A stretch of DNA of 55,314 bases from Nitrospiraceae bacterium (lineage in GTDB: Bacteria > Nitrospirota > Thermodesulfovibrionia > Thermodesulfovibrionales > Dissulfurispiraceae), in assembly GCA_012517735.1 (NCBI GenBank), contig JAAYUK010000041.1:1-55314 (forward strand). The letters run 5' to 3'. Each line of letters opens with the position of its first letter. The stretch's first letter is position 1. Made by a program: the position numbers and the translations under genes. This document shows positions 23,471 to 48,105 of this stretch, one piece after another. The notes beneath the pieces were generated by a model. The model was not told the DNA's origin. It saw only the letters and a program-made list of their open reading frames with translations, and searched no databases.

Positions 23471-23862
23471 CCGAACGCATTCTCATCGGCGCGTTCATTT
23501 TCGGCATCATCGGGCTGTTTACCCTGATCGGCATCCTGACGCCCGGAGTCGGGTGGTTTCTCTATCTTTTTCTCATCCCGTTCTGGGCCATGTTTCCGGT
23601 AGTGGTTGTCGGCAGCACCGGAGCACTCTATCTGCTCGGGGCCTATCTGGTCGGGTTTCCGCTTGCCAAGCTCCTGCTCAAAAATACCGGGTGGTATGCC
23701 CGGGCGCAGAAGGACTTGCGCACCAAAGGGCGCACGTCCATCGGCGGCTTCACGGTTTCCTCAGGCGGCTCAGGTGGTTCGTGGAGCTCCGGCAGTTCCG
23801 GAGGGTCGTTCTCGGGAGGCGGGGGATCCTCAGGCGGCGGCGGAGCTTCAGGCAGCTGGTAG
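23461..23862 (+). CDS. Small membrane protein with Gly/Ser-rich tail (TPM-tail-like)
   Basis: The 133-residue protein starts at ATG 23461 inside the end of the MFS gene. Two hydrophobic helices (about 8-30 and 38-62) are followed by a basic linker and a long Gly/Ser/Trp tail (SSGGSGGSWSSGSSGGSFSG and similar). Such tails are typical of TPM-domain (YgcG-like) proteins, but the N-terminal TPM domain is absent here. It may be a shortened relative or an independent protein; I do not know its function. Confidence 0.75.
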   Translation: MPLTERILIGAFIFGIIGLFTLIGILTPGVGWFLYLFLIPFWAMFPVVVVGSTGALYLLGAYLVGFPLAKLLLKNTGWYARAQKDLRTKGRTSIGGFTVSSGGSGGSWSSGSSGGSFSGGGGSSGGGGASGSW

Positions 23863-23914
23863 TAATGGTTTTGCTTTCCTGACAGCCGCGGGCTTCGCAC
23901 CGCAAATATGTCCT

Positions 23915-23998
23915 CTCTGTGCCGCCTTGCTGAATAAATCCGCTCTGTTGCCAGCCCAGCTGAGCTCTGAACGCTTTCGATCGAATCCAATGACAATT
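23915..23998 (-). mobile_element. MITE-like element, copy 2 (decayed)
   Basis: In minus orientation one end is well kept: CCAATGACAATT at 23987-23998, then the conserved inner run with GAATAAATCCGCTCTGTTGC. The other end has diverged beyond recognition near the preceding gene. It is the most eroded of the five copies and has no visible flanking duplication. Confidence 0.65.
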
Positions 23999-24095
23999 TC
24001 GGGATACTGTCTCGCAGCAAGATTTTACAAGACAAGGATCGGTATTTCCCCTAAAATGGAATCAAGATTAAAGCACAGGCAGCAGAGGAGGCGCA

Positions 24096-24488
24096 ATGCA
24101 GAGTACAGAACTGAGCGGTTTTTTTATTAAAGGAAACGTCTGTAAGGGAGAAGCATCCGTTGCGATCAAGGAACTTCCTTGGGCGGAACATCCTTCCTTT
24201 AAAGGAGTACACATGAAACATCTTTTATCGGGGCAGGAGACTGCAGGATTGCTGAGCTGCCATCTTGTCAGAATTGACCCGAATTGTGAAATCGGCAATC
24301 ATATCCACGACGGTAAAGTTGAAGTACACACCGTCCTTGCAGGGGGAGGCGGATGCGAGCTGGACGGTAAATGGGTGCCCTACGAACAGGGAACCATTTC
24401 CATCATTCCATCAGCTGCACCTCATAAGGTAATGGCGGGCCAGTCCGGCCTTTACCTGTACGCAAAGTTTTCTCCGGCTCTGGTTTAA
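24096..24488 (+). CDS. Single-domain cupin protein
   Basis: The 130-residue protein has a beta-barrel with cupin motif 1 'GNHIHDGKVEVHTVLAGGG' (His, His, Glu and a following His at about 71-80) and motif 2 'IPSAAPHKV' (His near 113). These would bind one metal ion. AGAGGAGG lies about 6 nt before ATG. It stands 20 bp upstream of an AraC-type regulator gene, and a paired sensing or detoxifying role is possible but not shown. Confidence 0.85.
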   Translation: MQSTELSGFFIKGNVCKGEASVAIKELPWAEHPSFKGVHMKHLLSGQETAGLLSCHLVRIDPNCEIGNHIHDGKVEVHTVLAGGGGCELDGKWVPYEQGTISIIPSAAPHKVMAGQSGLYLYAKFSPALV

Positions 24489-24508
24489 GAGAGACGTGGG
24501 GGAGTATC

Positions 24509-25480
24509 ATGGGAGCGAGTCTGAGATATCAGATGGCAGGCCATAAAAAGACCTGTATGCCAGAAGAAGAGCTCAGGGAACGCCTGCCCATGAACTGGCA
24601 GGATCGAGATGTGCTGTTTGATCCGGTTCAGAGCAGTATCAAGCTGATTCAGGCGAAAAACATCACCAACTATCTTCCGAGTCACGTACATCAGAAACTC
24701 TATATCGGCTTGATTGATGACGGGAAACGAGTCATGCGGTACCGGGGTGAATCCTCCCCGATGGGAAGGGGAAACCTCTTCCTGATCAATATTGATGAAG
24801 CACATGAATGCGATGATGATGCCCACAGTTTTCGAGTTGTTGGCTTCGATGAAAAAACCGTTATCAAGATTGCGAAAGAAATCAATCCGGATTCGCCGGT
24901 AAGCAGCATCGCATTTAACAAGTTAGTAACGACAGACCGCTTCTTGTATCGGGAGATAGCCGCATTTTTCCAGATGACGGCTGCTCCCGCCCCGAAACTG
25001 GCGGTGGAGTCGCTCATGAACGGCATTTTATCCCGGCTTGTCCTGAAACACACCTGCTCCAGCTCAACTCTGCTGTCCCGGCCACTGTCATTTACCGCAG
25101 CAGTTCGTGTCGCAAAGGAATATATACACGACAATTATGCCGAAGACATATCGCTGAGTGAACTGGCGGTCATATCGCGATTGACCCCCTTTCACCTGAG
25201 TCGTATTTTTACCAACACGTATGGACTTCCGCCACATCTCTATCTGATACGTCTGCGGGTTGAAACTGCAAAAAGGGCCCTTTTGCAGAATGACTCAACG
25301 ATCGCTGATGTGGCAGTAAGCACCGGGTTCTACGATCACAGCCATTTTGCCAGGGTATTTAAGCGATATGTAGGCGTTACCCCGCGGCAGTATGTTGAGA
25401 TGCACAGGCAAAGATCACGTCCCGGTGAGTCTGATGCGCACAAGGAGGATGCATGCACAAGGCAGCAAGGGCCACCATAG
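24509..25480 (+). CDS. AraC-family transcriptional regulator
   Basis: The 323-residue protein has an N-terminal cupin-like ligand domain at about 35-110 (NITNYLPSHVHQKLYIGLID, MGRGNLFLINIDEAHECDDD). A C-terminal double helix-turn-helix at about 205-300 (YAEDISLSELAVISRLTPFH, then TIADVAVSTGFYDHSHFARV) ends in FKRYVGVTPRQY. The ligand is unknown. GGGGGAG lies 5 nt before ATG. The 3' end overlaps the next gene by 28 bp, so this regulator most likely controls the block it heads. Confidence 0.92.
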   Translation: MGASLRYQMAGHKKTCMPEEELRERLPMNWQDRDVLFDPVQSSIKLIQAKNITNYLPSHVHQKLYIGLIDDGKRVMRYRGESSPMGRGNLFLINIDEAHECDDDAHSFRVVGFDEKTVIKIAKEINPDSPVSSIAFNKLVTTDRFLYREIAAFFQMTAAPAPKLAVESLMNGILSRLVLKHTCSSSTLLSRPLSFTAAVRVAKEYIHDNYAEDISLSELAVISRLTPFHLSRIFTNTYGLPPHLYLIRLRVETAKRALLQNDSTIADVAVSTGFYDHSHFARVFKRYVGVTPRQYVEMHRQRSRPGESDAHKEDACTRQQGPP

Positions 25481-25779
25481 GGGCTCTTTTGACGTTGCTC
25501 GCGGTAGTACTCATAGCGTATACAGCCGGAGCATATTCCGAAACTGTCATTACCGTAAAGGGAACGGTTTATGGGGAGCGGTGGACCGATAAAGGGGAAG
25601 TCGCCCAGGTCTCCATACTGACGGTGGACGGAGATGAACTGCTGGTGAATGACAGTATCGCTGGCAAGGAACTGTTCAAGGTCGTTGATCAGAATGTGAA
25701 AGTGACCGGCGCAGTGCTGATCGATGCTGAGGGGAAGAAAAGAATCACGGTTCATGATTTTGAAGTGGTACAAAACTAA
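25453..25779 (+). CDS. Small exported protein, OB-fold-like
   Basis: The 108-residue protein has a clear signal peptide (ATIGALLTLLAVVLIAYTAG) followed by a short all-beta domain (VITVKGTVYG, VSILTVDGDELLVND, LFKVVDQNVKVTGAVLI, RITVHDFEVV). The strand order resembles small OB-fold periplasmic proteins. ACAAGGAGG lies 5 nt before ATG, inside the end of the AraC gene. The partner is likely the Tat-exported metallo-hydrolase encoded next. Confidence 0.8.
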   Translation: MHKAARATIGALLTLLAVVLIAYTAGAYSETVITVKGTVYGERWTDKGEVAQVSILTVDGDELLVNDSIAGKELFKVVDQNVKVTGAVLIDAEGKKRITVHDFEVVQN

Positions 25780-25817
25780 AACTATCGATATTGTGAAATA
25801 GCGAAACAGGAGGAAGA

Positions 25818-26888
25818 ATGCATCGAAGAGACTTCTTGAAAGGGATGGCTGCCTCAGGAGCTGCCCTTGCACTGGGAGGCCTTGAGGTCGCAGGGGTTGC
25901 CGACAATGCATGGGCAGGCCCGAGCAAGGTCGATATTGGTCAGTGCAAGTCAGTGAAGATAACCTGTGTATCAGAGACCAGCTGGTTTGATTCCGCCAAG
26001 ATGGCCCAGGATATCAAGAATGGCGGCGGAGCAATGGTTTCTCACTACGATATTCCGTGGTCGCAGGACAACATCGGCGGCTATAGTGCGCTCATCGAGG
26101 TCGAGCATCTGGACGGATCAAAGCACCTGATCCTCATGGACACGGGTTGGAAGCAGGATTGGATGGACTACGTTTTCCAGAAGAGCGGCGTAGACAGCCT
26201 GCTGGAACGAAAGAAAATCGATGTGCTCGTTATGAGTCACGAACATGAGGACCATTATTGGGGCCTGAAATCGACGCTCAAGCGGTATCAGAACATTCCG
26301 ATGGTCATTCCGAACACATTCTATCCTGAAGGCAAGGCACTGCTCAAGGGAAAGTACAAGAATGACAAGGCGAAGGTTGAAAACAACATACCGCACACCG
26401 GAGAGCTGGTTGAGGTTGGTGCAAATCAGGTGTACAAGATGTATCCCGGAGTTGCGGTCAAAATGTTCGATGTTCCTATCCTGCTCCGTGTTCGTGGTGA
26501 GCAGGCGCTGATCTTCAACATCAAGGATAAAGGGGTAGCAACGGTCACGGGATGCTGTCATATGGGGATCCTCAACCTCACCAATTGGGCAGCCAGAAAT
26601 ATCGAGGGGTACAAGCCGTATGCCCTCTATGGAGGTCTTCATATCGCTGCATTTGAGAACTGGGACCCCAAATTTGATGACATTATCAACGGCCTCAAAC
26701 GGATGAAGTTGTCAAAGATCGGCTGCAACCATTGCACCGGGTGGGTCTGGGCACAGCGCGCCCGGGAAATGGGACTGCCAATACTTCTGGGAACCAACAA
26801 GTATCGAGAATACAAGAAAGTGCCGACTACGGGCCCCGGAGCGAAGGAGAATGTTTACCTTCGGAATGGCGATGTCATAGTACTGTAA
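25818..26888 (+). CDS. Tat-exported metallo-beta-lactamase-fold protein
   Basis: The 356-residue protein begins with a Tat signal (MHRRDFLKGMAASGAALALG), so it folds with its metal in the cytoplasm before export. The metal motif HEHEDH is at residues 141-146. Later possible ligands are CCHMG near 242, GGLHIAAF near 272 and CNHCTGW near 303. The overall plan recalls the methanopterin-synthesis-related MBL group, with no evidence for that reaction. ACAGGAGG lies about 6 nt before ATG. A strong terminator follows. The substrate is unknown. Confidence 0.9.
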   Translation: MHRRDFLKGMAASGAALALGGLEVAGVADNAWAGPSKVDIGQCKSVKITCVSETSWFDSAKMAQDIKNGGGAMVSHYDIPWSQDNIGGYSALIEVEHLDGSKHLILMDTGWKQDWMDYVFQKSGVDSLLERKKIDVLVMSHEHEDHYWGLKSTLKRYQNIPMVIPNTFYPEGKALLKGKYKNDKAKVENNIPHTGELVEVGANQVYKMYPGVAVKMFDVPILLRVRGEQALIFNIKDKGVATVTGCCHMGILNLTNWAARNIEGYKPYALYGGLHIAAFENWDPKFDDIINGLKRMKLSKIGCNHCTGWVWAQRAREMGLPILLGTNKYREYKKVPTTGPGAKENVYLRNGDVIVL

Positions 26889-26896
26889 TCCACTGA

Positions 26897-26940
26897 GCGT
26901 TGCTGCCTGCCCTGTTGGAATGCGGCAGCAACGCTTCTTT
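26897..26940 (+). terminator. Rho-independent terminator after the MBL gene
   Basis: GCGTTGCTGC (26897-26906) and GCAGCAACGC (26925-26934) form a perfect 10-bp stem followed by TTCTTT. Confidence 0.8.
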
Positions 26941-26994
26941 CCGAGTCAAAAATTCATCGATTTGCGCTTTGAAAAAAGCGATGGAGGGGTTTTT

Positions 26995-28242
26995 ATGTCT
27001 CAAAATCTGGAATTGAGTGTCTCTGAAGTCTCAAAACCGGCCTTCACACTGCCTGCATCAATTCAGGGTTTAGTGAATGTAATGCTGCTTTCTCTTGTGG
27101 CGGAGGCTATCTGGTATCTTGTTTTTTCACCGGAAGGGCCGACACGGCTCTATACTCCCAATGTAGGACTCTCGCTTGTTGTCACCATACTCATGGTCAT
27201 TCATTGGGGCGTGGACGTGCTGGAGTTTTGGCCTTTTTCTGCCGAATCTCTCCAGAAGATGCATCCGCTTGTCAAAGGACCGATACTTTCCATTTTGTAC
27301 GTCGGTGCAGGAGCCGTGGTGATGTTCGGCATCTATCACAGTATAATCGGTCCTTTTGGGGCATTGTTTTTCAGCGGCCCTGCGCTTATTGCGAGCGGTG
27401 GACTCGGTCAGTATTCCCAGACTGCCATCGAAAACGGATGCTATGCACAGATCGTCATGAACACCAGCATTATTTTCTTCACCATGCTGTGGCTGCGTTG
27501 CTTGGGGTTTACCCCTTGGGAGGGGCTTGATCGACCAGCCCGGGGATTCTCTGTCTGGATTGCAGGGCTGCTGCTCGGGATTATCGCTTTCTCTTTGTTG
27601 TTCTATCCTCACATCGCTTACCAGTTCTACCCGCAGCAGATATTCATGGCGGCAGCACCATGGTGGAGCGGCGCTGCCATGACCCAAAGCAGTCTGTTCC
27701 ATTTCGGCTGGATCGTTCCCGCTCTGGTTCTTTTATATTGGACCCGGATGCTCTGGGAAGGATATCCCTTCATTCTTGTGCATAAACCCTGGCTGCGCGG
27801 AGTCATGACTGCTCTTGTAAGTATAGGAGCAGGCATCGGGTTGATGTTTCTGTCCAATTCCATTATGGATTGGTACTTTGGTGCGGAGGCGTTCGAGGGA
27901 GGCTCGATGACTGAGCAGCCGGCATGGAGATGGAATCATGTTGCTGAGATGGCCATGTTCATGCAGCTTGCAGCGGCAATCCTGTTTCACTACTTTGACA
28001 ACTGGCCCAATCGGCTGAGCCTGCCCTTGAGAGCTATTGTCAGGACGGCAATCGCTGTCACCGGTGGTTTGCTGATTGCAAAACTCTATTACGAATTGGC
28101 CCCCGATTTGCTGGGCACGGTCCCCGGAATAGCGCAGGAGGCTGATACGACACTTTGCTGGACAGTTCTTGTGCTGATTCTGATCACCATGCACGCGCTT
28201 TTCTTTGATTGCTACCCGTTCAGGCGAAGGAAAAAGGACTAG
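26995..28242 (+). CDS. Polytopic membrane protein of unknown family
   Basis: The 415-residue protein starts at ATG 26995, chosen for GGAGGGG 5 nt upstream. It has about ten hydrophobic helices. Charged or functional residues lie within or beside membrane segments: IHWGVDVLEFWPF, GIYHSIIGPFG, FYPHIAYQFYPQ, SLFHFGWIVP, and WNHVAEMAMFMQ. Several conserved-looking His and Trp residues could form a cofactor or metal site. I recognise no family. It lies between two terminator-like hairpins and downstream of the Tat/MBL gene, and may anchor or deliver electrons to that protein. Confidence 0.8.
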   Translation: MSQNLELSVSEVSKPAFTLPASIQGLVNVMLLSLVAEAIWYLVFSPEGPTRLYTPNVGLSLVVTILMVIHWGVDVLEFWPFSAESLQKMHPLVKGPILSILYVGAGAVVMFGIYHSIIGPFGALFFSGPALIASGGLGQYSQTAIENGCYAQIVMNTSIIFFTMLWLRCLGFTPWEGLDRPARGFSVWIAGLLLGIIAFSLLFYPHIAYQFYPQQIFMAAAPWWSGAAMTQSSLFHFGWIVPALVLLYWTRMLWEGYPFILVHKPWLRGVMTALVSIGAGIGLMFLSNSIMDWYFGAEAFEGGSMTEQPAWRWNHVAEMAMFMQLAAAILFHYFDNWPNRLSLPLRAIVRTAIAVTGGLLIAKLYYELAPDLLGTVPGIAQEADTTLCWTVLVLILITMHALFFDCYPFRRRKKD

Positions 28243-28252
28243 AAAGGTAAAG

Positions 28253-28287
28253 GGGAGGGGACGTAAACTGGTATCAGTTCCCCTCCC
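28253..28287 (+). other. Intergenic hairpin, possible attenuator
   Basis: GGGAGGGGA (28253-28261) pairs with TCCCCTCCC (28279-28287) around a 17-nt loop, without a T-run. It sits between two same-strand genes and could reduce read-through or stabilise an mRNA end. Confidence 0.5.
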
Positions 28288-28324
28288 TCATTTATATGTT
28301 ACGACGTTGCAATGGGAGTTGGTA

Positions 28325-29245
28325 ATGTTTTGGACCAGACCGAAAAAAGGCAATAAGATGATAGAACAACTTGATCCCATAGAAAAGCTCCAGCTCTGTC
28401 TGCAAGGACTGTTTCAGCAGATGATTTTGACCGAGGCGGCAAAAGGCGTAATACAACTGCAAGGGGTCAGCGAAAAATGGGTGGGTGATCCCGGATTGCT
28501 GCTCTGGTTCGAAAAGGCACCCGGACCCTATCTCATGGAGATTGCCTATGCAGGTTGCGCATCGCGTCCGAGATCGCGCGAGAAAAGCTTTGTCGGTACC
28601 TTCAGGGTCAGCTGCTATCCGGCAGGAGGCGATGCAACCGATCATGGCACTCATTATCATAAAGATGGGCGCGCGCTTAGTTCCGATCCGCTTTTTGACA
28701 GTACCGGGACTCCCACGCTGGAAGGTCTTCTGAAAATACCTGATGTGCTCTTTCAAACCGGGTTCATCTGTGTGGAGATCTCCGGAGATAAACTTCTGCA
28801 TTTCTGCTCGTGCGCTCCCGACGAATTCCCCCGCATTTCAGAAAACACCATCATGTTGTCGCATGATGCCATAAAGCACTGCCTTGGAAGGGAGTGTCGG
28901 ACTCCGTGGTATACGACGTGGTTCATTCTCGATAAGCTCATTCTCGCTTTTTGCCATATCAATCGATCAAAACCAAAACATATTATCCTTTATCCTCCTA
29001 AAGAGGCACGTGTCCGGCATGAGCAACGGCATGGGCAGTATGTTTTGCGTGGCTCGACCTCTCTTGCGAGAGATGCTGTGGTGTCTCTTCCTTGTTCGGC
29101 TCACGTCGCTGCGCACGGACACGGCAAAGTGATTCGAACGGAGCACGATGTGAAAAATATTGAGTGGATCAATGGTCAGTGGTGGCATGCTGCACATATC
29201 CATGTTGTTCCGAATGGAGGAGCTTCATTTTGTGCTCATGACTAA
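28325..29245 (+). CDS. His/Cys-rich protein of unknown function
   Basis: The protein has 306 residues from ATG 28325 (GGGAG 6 nt upstream); ATG 28358 is an alternative. There is no signal peptide or membrane helix. It has many cysteines (FRVSCYPAGG, FCSCAP, HCLGREC) and histidines, including AAHGHGK, QWWHAAHIHV and a final CAHD. The pattern suggests metal binding. Base composition looks a little more AT-rich than the hydrogenase genes, which would fit acquisition by transfer. It is last in the accessory block and is followed by a terminator. No family is recognised. Confidence 0.7.
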   Translation: MFWTRPKKGNKMIEQLDPIEKLQLCLQGLFQQMILTEAAKGVIQLQGVSEKWVGDPGLLLWFEKAPGPYLMEIAYAGCASRPRSREKSFVGTFRVSCYPAGGDATDHGTHYHKDGRALSSDPLFDSTGTPTLEGLLKIPDVLFQTGFICVEISGDKLLHFCSCAPDEFPRISENTIMLSHDAIKHCLGRECRTPWYTTWFILDKLILAFCHINRSKPKHIILYPPKEARVRHEQRHGQYVLRGSTSLARDAVVSLPCSAHVAAHGHGKVIRTEHDVKNIEWINGQWWHAAHIHVVPNGGASFCAHD

Positions 29246-29330
29246 GCCCTGTGTGATGATCACAAAAACAACAGTCGAGAAATGGTAAGTGATTCCCTCC
29301 CCGTGATCATTCCAAGCTGGTCACGAATAT

Positions 29331-29366
29331 GCTGCCTTCGTTCAGAACGGGTGAAGGCAGCTTTTT
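29331..29366 (+). terminator. Rho-independent terminator
   Basis: GCTGCCTTC (29331-29339) and GAAGGCAGC (29353-29361) form a 9-bp perfect stem followed by TTTTT, about 85 bp after the His/Cys-rich gene. Confidence 0.8.
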
Positions 29367-29558
29367 CATTTGTGGAGACAGGAGATAATAATGATATTTG
29401 TCGATCCTCAGGTTATGTCCCTTAGGAACGACACCAAACCGGGCCGACAATTCAGATCAAGTCATATGTCTCTCAGATAGTCAGCGGTCTCTTTATTTCA
29501 GCATACGGCAAGAAATAATTCGGGCTTCCTTACCAGACAAAACTCTGCTTTATCCCAA
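29367..29558. other. Gene-poor stretch with one doubtful short ORF
   Basis: Here an ATG at 29391 follows a good CAGGAG site and opens a 29-codon frame (MIFVDPQVMSLRND...) ending at 29480. It could be the truncated start of a lost gene. I see nothing else before the MITE copy begins. Confidence 0.3.
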
Positions 29559-29775
29559 AATGTCATTGGATTCGATCACAATCGCTCCGAGCATGGCAGG
29601 ACTGGCAACAGAGCGGATTTATTCGGCGAAGCGGCACATATAGGACGTATGTGCCAGGCGAATACCTCGGAGGACGGCTGGACGCCGTCCGAGAAGCGGG
29701 GCCCCCGGAAGTGTCGATGACTTTTCGGGGTGGCAGTTGAGCGGCGTTGCCTGTCCTGCCGGGCTAATGACAATT
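29559..29775 (+). mobile_element. MITE-like element, copy 3 (long form)
   Basis: The left end AATGTCATTGG has lost one T compared with the consensus; the right end CTAATGACAATT (29764-29775) is perfect. Like copy 1 it keeps the extra roughly 43-bp segment with a CCCCGGAA/TTTTCGGGG stem, where one change is a tolerated G.T pair. Flanks TTTATCC (29549-29555) and TTTATTCC (29781-29788) look like an imperfect target duplication. It lies upstream of the rex promoter. Confidence 0.8.
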
Positions 29776-29912
29776 CTGGGTTTATTCCGTTGGGGTTGCC
29801 CAAGCAGGCAATATAAGAATTTTTAATAGCGAAAAAAAGCGCGATTGGAGCCGATTCGCGGGCAGATAAAAAAGATTTATGCTTCCAATCGAAATAAATC
29901 ATGCTGATTTTA

Positions 29913-29940
29913 TTGACTTTTTTCAAAATCGGCTCATAAA
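29913..29940 (+). promoter_or_regulatory. sigma70 promoter for the rex-hydCBA operon
   Basis: TTGACT (29913-29918) and CATAAA (29935-29940) are separated by 16 bp in an AT-rich tract. The message would carry a leader of about 65 nt before the rex GTG. No exact Rex operator (TTGTGAA..TTCACAA type) is seen around it. Confidence 0.5.
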
Positions 29941-29956
29941 CTAATCGTGAAAAGTT

Positions 29957-29990
29957 TCTCGATAAAGATTTCTCGAGAAAAAAATCTCGA
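29957..29990 (+). repeat. Three TCTCGA direct repeats at 14-bp spacing in the rex leader
   Basis: TCTCGA occurs at 29957, 29971 and 29985, exactly 14 bp apart. The middle one lies inside the 12-bp palindrome TTTCTCGAGAAA (29969-29980). This regular array lies between the promoter and the rex start and may be an operator or an RNA structure. Confidence 0.5.
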
Positions 29991-30012
29991 TTGGAGCTCG
30001 GGGGAGGCCCAA

Positions 30013-30705
30013 GTGGAGAAGGCAGCAGACCATAAAGAGGTGATTACCATTCCGGAACCAACGCTCCGGCGTCTTCCTATCTATTATCAGTACCTCAAAA
30101 ACCTCGAAAGCACGGGCACCAAGGTCATTTCGTGCACGACGATCGGCAATGATCTCGATTTCGACCCGACCCAGGTACGGAAAGACTTTTCCTATACCGG
30201 AGTGGAAGGCAAGCCGAAGGTCGGCTATCTAGTTGCCGACCTCCTCCGGGAGATTGAGGAGTTTCTCGGCTGGAATAAGGTCAATGCCGCTTTTCTGGTC
30301 GGCGCAGGCAATCTCGGAACCGCCCTGCTCGGGTATTCGCAGTTCAAGCAGCATGGTCTATCCATTGTGGGAGCCTTTGATAAGGATGAAGCAAAAATCG
30401 GGCGTCTGATCCACGGCAAGCGGGTTCTGGCACTCGAAAAACTGCCGGGGCTCGCGCTTCGCATGGGCATCAGGCTCGGCATCATTACTGTTCCTCCAGC
30501 ATCTGCCCAGGAGGTCGCCGACCTGATGGTCAAGGGCGGCATCCAGGCGATCTGGAATTTTGCTCCTGTTACGCTCAAGGTACCTTCCCCCGTCCTTGTG
30601 CGTAACGAGGAGCTCTATTATTCCCTGGCATCGCTTTCCCATTCGCTCGCCAAAAAAATGCATACAAAGACAGAGAAAGGAGAAGAGGGGTATGCAAGCA
30701 ACTGA
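30013..30705 (+). CDS. rex: Redox-sensing transcriptional repressor Rex
   Basis: The protein has 230 residues from GTG 30013, chosen because GGGGAGG lies 5 nt upstream; the frame is open to another GTG at 29947 near the predicted transcription start. The N-terminal winged helix (IPEPTLRRLPIYYQYLKNLE, then QVRKDFSYTGVEGKPKVGY) is followed by a Rossmann domain with NAAFLVGAGNLGTALLGYSQ and the dimer-swap helix at the end. Rex binds NADH/NAD+ and releases DNA when NADH is high. As first gene of the hydCBA operon it probably represses the hydrogenase until NADH accumulates. Confidence 0.93.
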   Translation: MEKAADHKEVITIPEPTLRRLPIYYQYLKNLESTGTKVISCTTIGNDLDFDPTQVRKDFSYTGVEGKPKVGYLVADLLREIEEFLGWNKVNAAFLVGAGNLGTALLGYSQFKQHGLSIVGAFDKDEAKIGRLIHGKRVLALEKLPGLALRMGIRLGIITVPPASAQEVADLMVKGGIQAIWNFAPVTLKVPSPVLVRNEELYYSLASLSHSLAKKMHTKTEKGEEGYASN

Positions 30706-31195
30706 AACGCACGTAACACCAGCCGAAAAGTTTGCAAATGTATGCGCAATTCTGGAAAAGCATGGCCGGCATCCTGCCAAGCTGATCCCGATTCTTCAGG
30801 CAGTGCAGGAAGAATACGGATATCTTCCTGAGGAGGTGCTGACCTTTGTTGCCGTGGCGCTCGATGTGCCGGCTGCCAGGGTTTTCGGCGTCGCTACGTT
30901 TTATGCGCATTTCGCCCTGGAGCCTCGGGGTAAATACGTCGTACGACTCTGCAACGGAACGGCGTGCCATGTCAAAAAGTCGATCCCGATTCTGGATGCC
31001 CTGTATCGCAAGCTCGGCATTTCGGAAAAGAAGCCGAAGCACGAGCTTATCACGATCGAAATTGTCGCCTGCCTCGGCGCATGCGGCCTGGCCCCGGTTA
31101 TGGTCATCAATGAGGACGTATACGGCCAGATGACGCCGGACCGTGCCGTGAAGCTGATTGACGAAATTCTTGAAAAGGAGGCTGCCCTGGTATGA
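30692..31195 (+). CDS. hydC: Hydrogenase subunit HydC (NuoE-like [2Fe-2S] protein)
   Basis: The 167-residue thioredoxin-like ferredoxin resembles NuoE and the gamma subunit of trimeric NADH- and ferredoxin-dependent hydrogenases. The [2Fe-2S] ligands are visible as LCNGTACHVKKS and VACLGACGLAPVM. Residues 10-70 form the usual helical bundle (HGRHPAKLIPILQAVQEEYG). AAAGGAG lies about 10 nt before ATG 30692, and the start overlaps the end of rex by 14 bp; its stop overlaps the hydB start (ATGA). It should pass electrons between the flavin of HydB and its partner clusters. Confidence 0.92.
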   Translation: MQATETHVTPAEKFANVCAILEKHGRHPAKLIPILQAVQEEYGYLPEEVLTFVAVALDVPAARVFGVATFYAHFALEPRGKYVVRLCNGTACHVKKSIPILDALYRKLGISEKKPKHELITIEIVACLGACGLAPVMVINEDVYGQMTPDRAVKLIDEILEKEAALV

Positions 31196-33078
31196 GCAAG
31201 GCCACGACTGTGACAAAGAAGGGCGACGGCAAAGGACCGGTTGCTGCCGGTAAACGCCGTGTCATCATCTGTGCCGGCACGGGCTGCGTTTCCAATGGCG
31301 CCCTGAAAGTATATGATGCGTTCATGCGCGAGATGAAGGAAAATGTTCTCGACTTCGACGTGATCCTGAAGCCGGAGAGCGACAATCTGCATCTCTCCAA
31401 GAGCGGCTGCCAGGGATTCTGCCAGATGGGCCCGCTGGTCACCATCCTTCCCGACGAGATTTTCTATACCAAGGTGACGCCAAACGATGTCGCCGAGATT
31501 GTCCAAAAGACCCTCCTGAAGGGCGAAGTGGTGGAGTGGCTTCTTTACAACGATCCGAACACAAAGCAGTTCTGCAAGGGTACGCATGATATTCCGTTCT
31601 ATCAGCGCCAGATGCGGTATGTCCTGAAGGAATGCGGTCTGATCGATCCCGAAGACATCAATGAATACATCTCCCATCGCGGCTATGAAGGAGCAAAGAA
31701 GGCATTTCTGAGCATGTCGGCCGAAGATATCTGCAAGGAAATCCTGGCATCGGGTCTCCGCGGTCGCGGCGGCGGCGGATTCCCGACCGGCCGCAAGTGG
31801 GATGCCGCACGTGTGCAGCCGGGCGCGAAAAAGTATGTGATCTGCAACGGTGACGAAGGCGATCCCGGCGCGTTCATGGACCGAAGCGTCATGGAAGGGA
31901 ATCCGCATTCTGTGATCGAGGGTCTCATGATAGCCGCCCGCGCGATCGGCGCCGATGAGGCGTACATATACGTCCGCGCAGAGTACCCGCTCGCAGTCAA
32001 GCGCATGTACAAGGCGGTTGCAGATGCGGAAGCCGCCGGAATCCTCGGCGACAATGTGTTCGGCACCGGGCAGAAAATGAAGTGTGTTGTCATGGAAGGC
32101 GCAGGCGCCTTCGTCTGCGGAGAAGAAACAGCGCTGATCGCTTCCATTGAAGGCATGCGCGGCATGCCGGTCCCCAAACCGCCGTTTCCCGCGCAGAGCG
32201 GATTATGGGGCAAGCCGACGGTTATCAACAACGTTGAGACGCTTGCCCAGGTCCCGCGCATCCTCCTTGACGGAGCGGATGAATACAGGAAAATCGGTAC
32301 CGCAACCTCTCCGGGAACCAAAACCTTTGCGCTTACCGGGCATGTCGTCAACACCGGTCTCATTGAAGTTCCGTTCGGCACGACGCTCGGCGAGATCGTC
32401 ATGAACATCGGCGGCGGCGTAACCGATGACCAGGGCAAGATTACGAAGGACGTATTCAAGGCGGTACAGATCGGCGGTCCGTCGGGAGGCTGTCTCACGC
32501 CGGACATGCTTGACCTTCCGCTCGATTTTGATTCGCTCCGCTCTGTCGGCGCCATGGTCGGCTCCGGCGGCCTTGTCGTCATGAACCAGAAGACCTGCAT
32601 GGTCAGCGTTGCGCGGTTCTTCATGGAATTCACCCAGCGTGAATCCTGCGGCAAATGCGTACTCTGCCGCGAAGGAACCAAACAGTTGCTGTCGTTGCTG
32701 GATGACGTCATTGAGGGGCGTGCGACGCTGGAAACCCTTTCGTTGATGGAACAGCTCGGGCGTGCTGTCCAGAAAGGCTCCCTGTGCGGACTCGGCAAAA
32801 CCGCGCCGAATCCGGTTCTGTCCACGCTGAAATACTTCCGGCATGAATACGAATCGCACGTCATTGACAAATACTGTCCCACCGGACGCTGCAAGGCGCT
32901 CGCAAAGCCGATGATCAATGCGACCAAGTGCAAGGGGTGCACCCTGTGCGTGACGGTCTGTCCGGTCGGCGCCATTACCGGCGGCAAGAAACTTCCGCAC
33001 AAGATCAATCAGGAAGTATGCATCAAGTGCGGGGCCTGCGCAGCAAAGTGCAAGTTCAACGCGATTGAGGGGGTTTAA
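31192..33078 (+). CDS. hydB: Hydrogenase flavoprotein subunit HydB (NuoF-like)
   Basis: In the 628-residue protein, residues 20-105 are an extra thioredoxin-like [2Fe-2S] domain (CAGTGCVSNGA, SGCQGFCQMGP). Then comes the NuoF core with the FMN/NADH sites RGRGGGGFPTGRKWDAA, NGDEGDPGAFMDR and GAGAFVCGEETALI. A SLBB segment and the N3-like cluster loop ESCGKCVLCREG follow. Two C-terminal [4Fe-4S] motifs (CKGCTLCVTVCP, CIKCGACAAKC) complete it. This is the domain order of HydB from trimeric bifurcating hydrogenases, which couple H2 with both NADH and ferredoxin. Bifurcation is inferred from the family, not proven. Confidence 0.94.
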   Translation: MSKATTVTKKGDGKGPVAAGKRRVIICAGTGCVSNGALKVYDAFMREMKENVLDFDVILKPESDNLHLSKSGCQGFCQMGPLVTILPDEIFYTKVTPNDVAEIVQKTLLKGEVVEWLLYNDPNTKQFCKGTHDIPFYQRQMRYVLKECGLIDPEDINEYISHRGYEGAKKAFLSMSAEDICKEILASGLRGRGGGGFPTGRKWDAARVQPGAKKYVICNGDEGDPGAFMDRSVMEGNPHSVIEGLMIAARAIGADEAYIYVRAEYPLAVKRMYKAVADAEAAGILGDNVFGTGQKMKCVVMEGAGAFVCGEETALIASIEGMRGMPVPKPPFPAQSGLWGKPTVINNVETLAQVPRILLDGADEYRKIGTATSPGTKTFALTGHVVNTGLIEVPFGTTLGEIVMNIGGGVTDDQGKITKDVFKAVQIGGPSGGCLTPDMLDLPLDFDSLRSVGAMVGSGGLVVMNQKTCMVSVARFFMEFTQRESCGKCVLCREGTKQLLSLLDDVIEGRATLETLSLMEQLGRAVQKGSLCGLGKTAPNPVLSTLKYFRHEYESHVIDKYCPTGRCKALAKPMINATKCKGCTLCVTVCPVGAITGGKKLPHKINQEVCIKCGACAAKCKFNAIEGV

Positions 33079-38625: not shown

Positions 38626-38677
38626 AAATGCATGAGGTCCATATCTTTGTATTTTTCACTTTGCACGTTTAACCGAG

Positions 38678-38854
38678 AATTGTCATTAGCCTGGCAGGAC
38701 AGGCAACGCCGCTCATTCTCGGACGGCATCCAGCCGTCCTCCGAGGTATTCGCCTTGCACATACGTCCTGTATGTGCCGCTTCGCCGAATAAATCCGCTC
38801 TGATGCCAGTCCAGCCAGGCTTAGAGCGTTATTGGGTCGAATCCAATGACAATT
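38678..38854 (-). mobile_element. MITE-like element, copy 4 (short form) between hydF and hydE
   Basis: Inverted repeats are AATTGTCATTAG (38678-38689) and CCAATGACAATT (38843-38854), and the interior matches copy 5 in reverse. The 7-bp direct repeat GTTTAAC is present on both sides (38667-38673 and 38859-38865), a clear target-site duplication. The hydE ATG is only 16 bp beyond the core end. The short form lacks the 43-bp stem segment found in copies 1 and 3. Confidence 0.85.
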
Positions 38855-38870
38855 TTAGGTTTAACTTCTC

Positions 38871-47836: not shown

Positions 47837-47857
47837 CGTCCGCAGTTTTTATGCCAA

Positions 47858-48033
47858 AATTGTCATTAGATTCGACCCAAATCGCTCAGAGCCGGGCTGG
47901 GCTGGCAACAGAGCGGATTTATTCGGCGAAACGGTACATACAGGAGGTATGTGCGAGGCGAATACCTCGGAGGACGGCTGGACGCCGTCCGAGAATGAGC
48001 GGCATTGCCTGCCCTGCCGGGCTAATGACAATT
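47858..48033 (+). mobile_element. MITE-like element, copy 5 (short form)
   Basis: The perfect 12-bp inverted repeats AATTGTCATTAG (47858-47869) and CTAATGACAATT (48022-48033) bound the core. The 8-bp direct repeat TTTTATGC flanks it at 47847-47854 and 48038-48045. If the duplication marks the true edges, the element spans 47855-48037. The interior has the palindromes GGACGGC/GCCGTCC and CATAC/GTATG. It is the best-preserved copy for defining the ends. Confidence 0.87.
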
Positions 48034-48105
48034 CTCGTTTTATGCGCAGGCAATGCGTACCGACAGAAGCAGGCTGCTGATATCTGATATATCCGGGAGG
48101 ATTGG

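Follow-up and report, generated by a model that had tools for sequence, protein, structure and literature searches.

The closest described relatives of the hydrolase treated here are MBL-fold proteins of the type of 2P4Z, 7DCK and 3H3E (Tm1679), which form a family that is presumably COG1237 and combine an MBL core and the HxHxDH motif with the blocks GC-x-H-x-G, GG-x-H and HCTG. Bioactive esters and lactones are often degraded by MBL-fold enzymes. Operons that couple a hydrolase to a membrane protein are known, as are catabolic operons driven by an adjacent AraC/XylS regulator and cupin gene. The cassette described here, found in a Nitrospirota draft genome (2.71 Mb, 268 contigs), looks similar in build to the hydrolase-plus-membrane-protein operons.

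The window analyzed is one entire contig of this genome, with a length of 55,314 bases. As originally predicted, it contains six ORFs (P1–P6) that run in the same direction (+) and span 24096–29245. These six genes had been regarded as one unit, but only P4, P5 and P6 are conserved together; the conserved unit comprises these three genes, not six.

Linkage of P4, P5 and P6 in Nitrospirota

P4 (25818–26888, +), the first gene of the core, encodes a predicted Tat-exported MBL-fold hydrolase of 356 aa; P5 (26995–28242, +) encodes a membrane protein and P6 (28325–29245, +) a soluble protein. The three genes are adjacent and co-oriented in four Nitrospirota genomes, namely this one (G000), G436 (whose copy is the locus L004), G007 and G009. 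The order is MBL-TM-P6 in the window, L004 and G007, with the P6 homolog located 3′ of P5, and P6-like-MBL-TM in G009, where a P6 homolog without its 5′ part lies 5′ of P4, near a contig end. Elsewhere in the order, P5 homologs occur in three genomes only (G436, G007 and G009), in each of which a P4 ortholog stands directly upstream of P5. With a threshold of E ≤ 1e-25 for P4 orthologs, the genomes carrying P4 and those carrying P5 are the same 4 of the 230 genomes of the class, and the two genes also share an identical 2 of 395 genomes in the phylum sample. The chance of two independent sets of four coinciding is about 1e-8, a figure that ignores shared ancestry; the P4/P5 linkage is already shown because the genes are adjacent. 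Two of the four occurrences are located on short bin contigs (4.5 and 8.2 kb), for which mis-binning is possible.

Identity to the P4 of the window is 69% in G436, 54% in G007 and about 44–46% in G009, and the corresponding values for P5 are about 63–67%, 34% and about 29–30%. These comparisons bear on the view that the functions of P4, P5 and P6 are unrelated and that the genes simply travel together. The different gene order in G009 and the hairpins that separate the genes in this genome (see below) would fit shared transfer of this kind, but the link has survived divergence to 30–45% identity and P4 and P5 are present in exactly the same genomes, so that we consider this view improbable.

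P5 relatives were found in neither the plasmids nor the viral contigs searched, and a search of genome contigs with P5 alone gave L004 as the sole match. A weak P6 match in G057 (E 0.004 over 64 residues), located next to chemotaxis genes, was put down to chance. On the 5′ side of the G007 copy is a gene (L005, 6436–7797) for an Amidohydro_2 protein that carries a twin-arginine motif, and a degraded second copy of this gene lies near 96.7 kb of contig C12 of G007; the protein was considered as a fourth member and rejected, being absent from G000, G009 and G436. Beside the G009 copy, on the same strand (L006, 1041–4323), are genes for a GntP permease, a second COG1237-like MBL, a dinitrogenase FeMo-cofactor-domain protein and a CGGC protein. 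A literature search found nothing on the P4-P5-P6 cassette; within the libraries and literature searched, the combination is undescribed.

The hydrolase and its two unrecognized partners

The original identification of P4 as a Tat-exported MBL protein is borne out by its family matches, TAT_signal (1e-6) and Lactamase_B (2e-7). The Tat signal exceeds the cut-off of both PF10518 (28.5 bits against 22.7) and TIGR01409 (21.1 against 16.7), and the twin-arginine RR is kept in all four homologs. The HxHxDH motif is intact, its residues H141, H143, D145 and H146 being invariant among the four. Among proteins of solved structure, 2P4Z, 7DCK and 3H3E come closest to P4, a similarity that was itself computed (profile alignment, E = 1.9e-16 for 2P4Z), and residue alignment reveals that P4 has in common with them the blocks GC(C/S/A)HxG, GG(L/F)H and HC(T/S)G. 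Judged by sequence, P4 is predicted to be an ordinary COG1237/2P4Z-type MBL-fold hydrolase. The motifs CCHMG and HCTG (the latter within CNHCTGW), once proposed to supply extra Cys/His ligands, are largely the signature of this family; a small part of that proposal stands, because C247 and C303, which lie beside histidines, are invariant in the four cassette proteins but not in the solved relatives. P4 further differs from the COG1237-type hydrolases in its Tat export, its longer N-terminal region and its constant position beside P5 and P6 where it has been seen.

Regarding P5, no Pfam match at E ≤ 10 was obtained for any of the four homologs, nor did P5 have an NCBIfam match at E ≤ 1 or a PDB sequence match. 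The structural model contains ten transmembrane helices (pLDDT 63, pTM 0.71). When P5 is placed as N-in/C-in, the numbers of Lys/Arg in the inner versus outer loops of the four homologs are 9:1, 8:1, 11:4 and 14:6, a pattern that follows the positive-inside rule. In these features P5 is similar to polytopic transporters and membrane enzymes in general; it differs from the known ones in its lack of any sequence match and of a convincing fold match, as fold searches with this moderate model returned mixed GPCR and MATE chains and nothing above noise (best Foldseek E 0.13, best Z 5.4). Invariant residues amount to 40 of 203 in the outer half and 18 of 180 in the inner half (Fisher p = 0.01, on the small basis of four sequences), and those of the periplasmic half include P205-H206, YPxQ (212–215), PWW (222–224), W239, R312, H315, E318 and Y365-Y366. 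With its invariant residues concentrated in the half predicted to be periplasmic, P5 is likely to have its working surface on that side, in the compartment of P4.

Detoxification or self-protection may be weighed at this point. P4 would then break down a periplasmic toxic compound for which P5 would serve as an exporter or binder; P6 would sequester the compound in the cytosol, and the upstream AraC and cupin proteins would sense it. The general habit of MBL-fold enzymes of degrading bioactive esters and lactones and the sporadic distribution of the cassette with regulators upstream are consistent with such a role. However, P4 belongs to the 2P4Z branch rather than to the B1–B3 beta-lactamases, the class B models reaching only 21 bits for bla_class_B_core (cut-off 100) and 15.5 for subclass B1 (cut-off 200); P5 matches no known export family, and no known resistance gene was recognized beside the cassette. 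We therefore hold a protective role to be unlikely.

P6 and its homologs match no Pfam family at E ≤ 10, and P6 has neither an NCBIfam family nor a PDB sequence match. Thus, the statement of the original prediction that P5 and P6 belong to no recognizable family proved correct. The description of P6 as a His/Cys-rich metal protein has to be abandoned: P6 has 18 His and 11 Cys in 306 aa in this genome, homologs have 11 and 4 in 423 and 5 and 8 in 274, and no His or Cys is invariant across the four homologs, including the incomplete G009 copy, so that on sequence grounds the richness appears to be a trait of this copy only. The residues invariant in all four are S49, L60, W61, P66, G67, E72, P99, F124, T127, G128, P130 and R192. 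The model of P6 is poor (pLDDT 47); residues ~20–216 align loosely with helix-grip Bet v 1-like chains at a best Z of 5.3, which is below the noise level of the tool, and the other fold neighbors are BPI-like chains, again with nothing above noise. This is a weak hint that residues ~20–216 may adopt a helix-grip fold; in comparison with the helix-grip ligand-binding proteins (Bet v 1/START/SRPBCC), the match is below noise, the model confidence is low and sequence similarity is absent. The structure predictions suggested for P5 and P6 in the original prediction thus gave fold matches that stay at or below noise.

The features of P5 and P6 also touch on envelope or lipid modification. P5 would here be a membrane enzyme whose active site (invariant H206, H315, E318, R312, W223 and W224) lies on the periplasmic side and whose substrate is lipid-like; it would work either in a series of steps with P4 or as one complex with it, and P6 would supply or bind a hydrophobic moiety. 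The way in which invariant polar and aromatic residues concentrate in P5's outer half and the weak Bet v 1/START/BPI-like matches of P6 point in this direction. Those P6 matches are, however, below the noise level, P5 has no recognized enzyme motif, and the cassette differs from core envelope functions in being rare and in being missing from the congener; a function in envelope or lipid modification is accordingly doubtful.

Upstream genes and transcription signals

P1 (24096–24488, +) is a small cupin protein of 130 aa (Cupin_2 2.3e-9, Cupin_7 2e-6), and P2 (24509–25480, +; 323 aa) is an AraC/XylS-family regulator whose helix-turn-helix and ligand-binding domains are both over the cut-off (HTH_18 1.5e-21, AraC_binding 5e-7); both had been recognized as such from the start. 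P3 (25453–25779, +; 108 aa), the start of which overlaps the end of P2, has an N-terminal hydrophobic segment and a beta-rich pattern and looks exported. The locus shares with catabolic operons that have an AraC/XylS regulator and a cupin gene the presence of both AraC domains in P2 and of a small cupin, P1, encoded directly upstream of the enzyme genes. It differs in that the genes 3′ of P1 and P2 belong to no known pathway and in that this pair is unlinked to the core elsewhere. Given the AraC and cupin genes immediately before it in the same orientation, it is plausible that the cassette is inducible, and the earlier claim of inducibility can be kept for this genome only.

That all six genes form one conserved inducible metal pathway is an idea with little probability. 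P1–P6 are co-oriented, with short gaps or overlaps as far as P4, and low GC is common to all of them. On the other side, local tblastn found no counterparts of P1, P2 or P3 in the G007 and G009 neighborhoods, no P3 homolog was found in the other 175 genomes of the order, and the His and Cys residues of P6 are not conserved. The comparison of P1–P3 is limited in L004, which holds just 457 bases 5′ of its P4. The co-occurrence proposed for the whole block in the original prediction holds for the adjacent P4-P5-P6 in four genomes and fails for P1–P3 in G007 and G009.

The gap between P4 and P5 (26889–26994) contains the hairpin that had been anticipated near 26897; it is located at about 26896–26933 on the + strand, has a T-rich tail and is strong (z = −3.6), so that co-transcription of P4 and P5 is not assured. 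The same gap of L004 (1526–1644) also holds a hairpin with a T-rich tail (z −3.7), of unrelated sequence. As the hairpin is kept in place while its sequence changes, the comparison of these two genomes suggests that transcripts are partly terminated, or else processed, between the hydrolase gene and that of the membrane protein. The gap between P5 and P6 (28243–28324, +) has a weaker hairpin (z −1.7). A terminator-like hairpin of 13 pairs with a T run follows P6 (29331–29361, +) and is, by its sequence, a good candidate terminator. An Rfam scan of 23500–30500 gave no matches.

Probable acquisition and possible role of the cassette

The GC content of the block is 0.506, against 0.553 ± 0.016 (sd) for 5.15-kb windows over 447 kb of the genome, which places it at the bottom of the distribution. 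The congener (G001) is without the block; a clean empty site was looked for there and not found, the flanks being on different contigs. The closest cassette belongs to G436, which is of a different family and has 48% GC in the genome sample, with G007 and G009 in the same family as this genome. Putative orthologs shared with G436 have a median identity of 60% (17 genes), and P4 and P5 reach 67–69% (BLAST); for the same-family G009, the median is 58% and P4 and P5 have just 44 and 30%, the baseline being small at 5–17 genes per pair. Because of the low GC, the absence from the congener and the closest relative in another family, horizontal acquisition of the block, as claimed originally, is likely by these sequence comparisons.

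The block is flanked by members of a dispersed repeat family: a partial, diverged copy on the left (23886–24006, −; 79% identical to the right-hand copy) and a full copy of ~243 bp on the right (29548–29790, +), inverted relative to the left one. The family has five copies in the window, the others being at 206–438, 38671–38855 and 47848–48043, and occurs in two size forms, of ~235–243 bp and without ~42 bp inside, with terminal inverted repeats that are CCCARAATKGTCATT-like. It is also present in the congener at ~80% identity. The arrangement of MITE, terminator and MITE described in the original prediction is thus found as far as the inverted same-family repeats and the terminator are concerned, but the repeats are no evidence of mobility, because about one copy occurs per 20 kb in this genome, often at contig ends; their interpretation as transposition ends was rejected. 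Beyond the right-hand copy, at 29947–33078, a Rex-type repressor gene immediately precedes NuoE/NuoF-like genes (NADH-linked hydrogenase type), a stretch whose synteny extends to the congener, with 81% identity of the DNA.

Our tentative preference, held with something less than even confidence, is that P4-P5-P6 is a horizontally spread cassette for the use or removal of one particular compound. We infer the following substrate class, division of labor and induction. In the periplasm, P4 would cleave a bond of the phosphodiester, ester or lactone type; P5 may take up the product or modify it further at or in the membrane; and P6 would be a cytosolic partner that possibly binds a hydrophobic ligand. 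In this genome, the AraC regulator and the cupin protein encoded directly before the cassette probably make it inducible. A bolder proposal, for which we see a rather slim chance, is that P5 represents a new enzyme family, integral to the membrane, whose active site faces the periplasm and which works in complex with P4, that P6 is a new type of cytosolic ligand carrier, and that the cassette encodes an undescribed envelope-linked pathway spread horizontally among Nitrospirota.

The cassette is a lead rather than a discovery. It offers, in place of a loose block of six genes, a defined three-gene unit with two unrecognized families and a tractable partner enzyme. If P5 is indeed a membrane enzyme or a new type of transporter, this would add a protein family whose functional partner is clear; if the cassette is an ordinary uptake operon, it would still mark a substrate-specific trait that is passed around within an uncultivated lineage.
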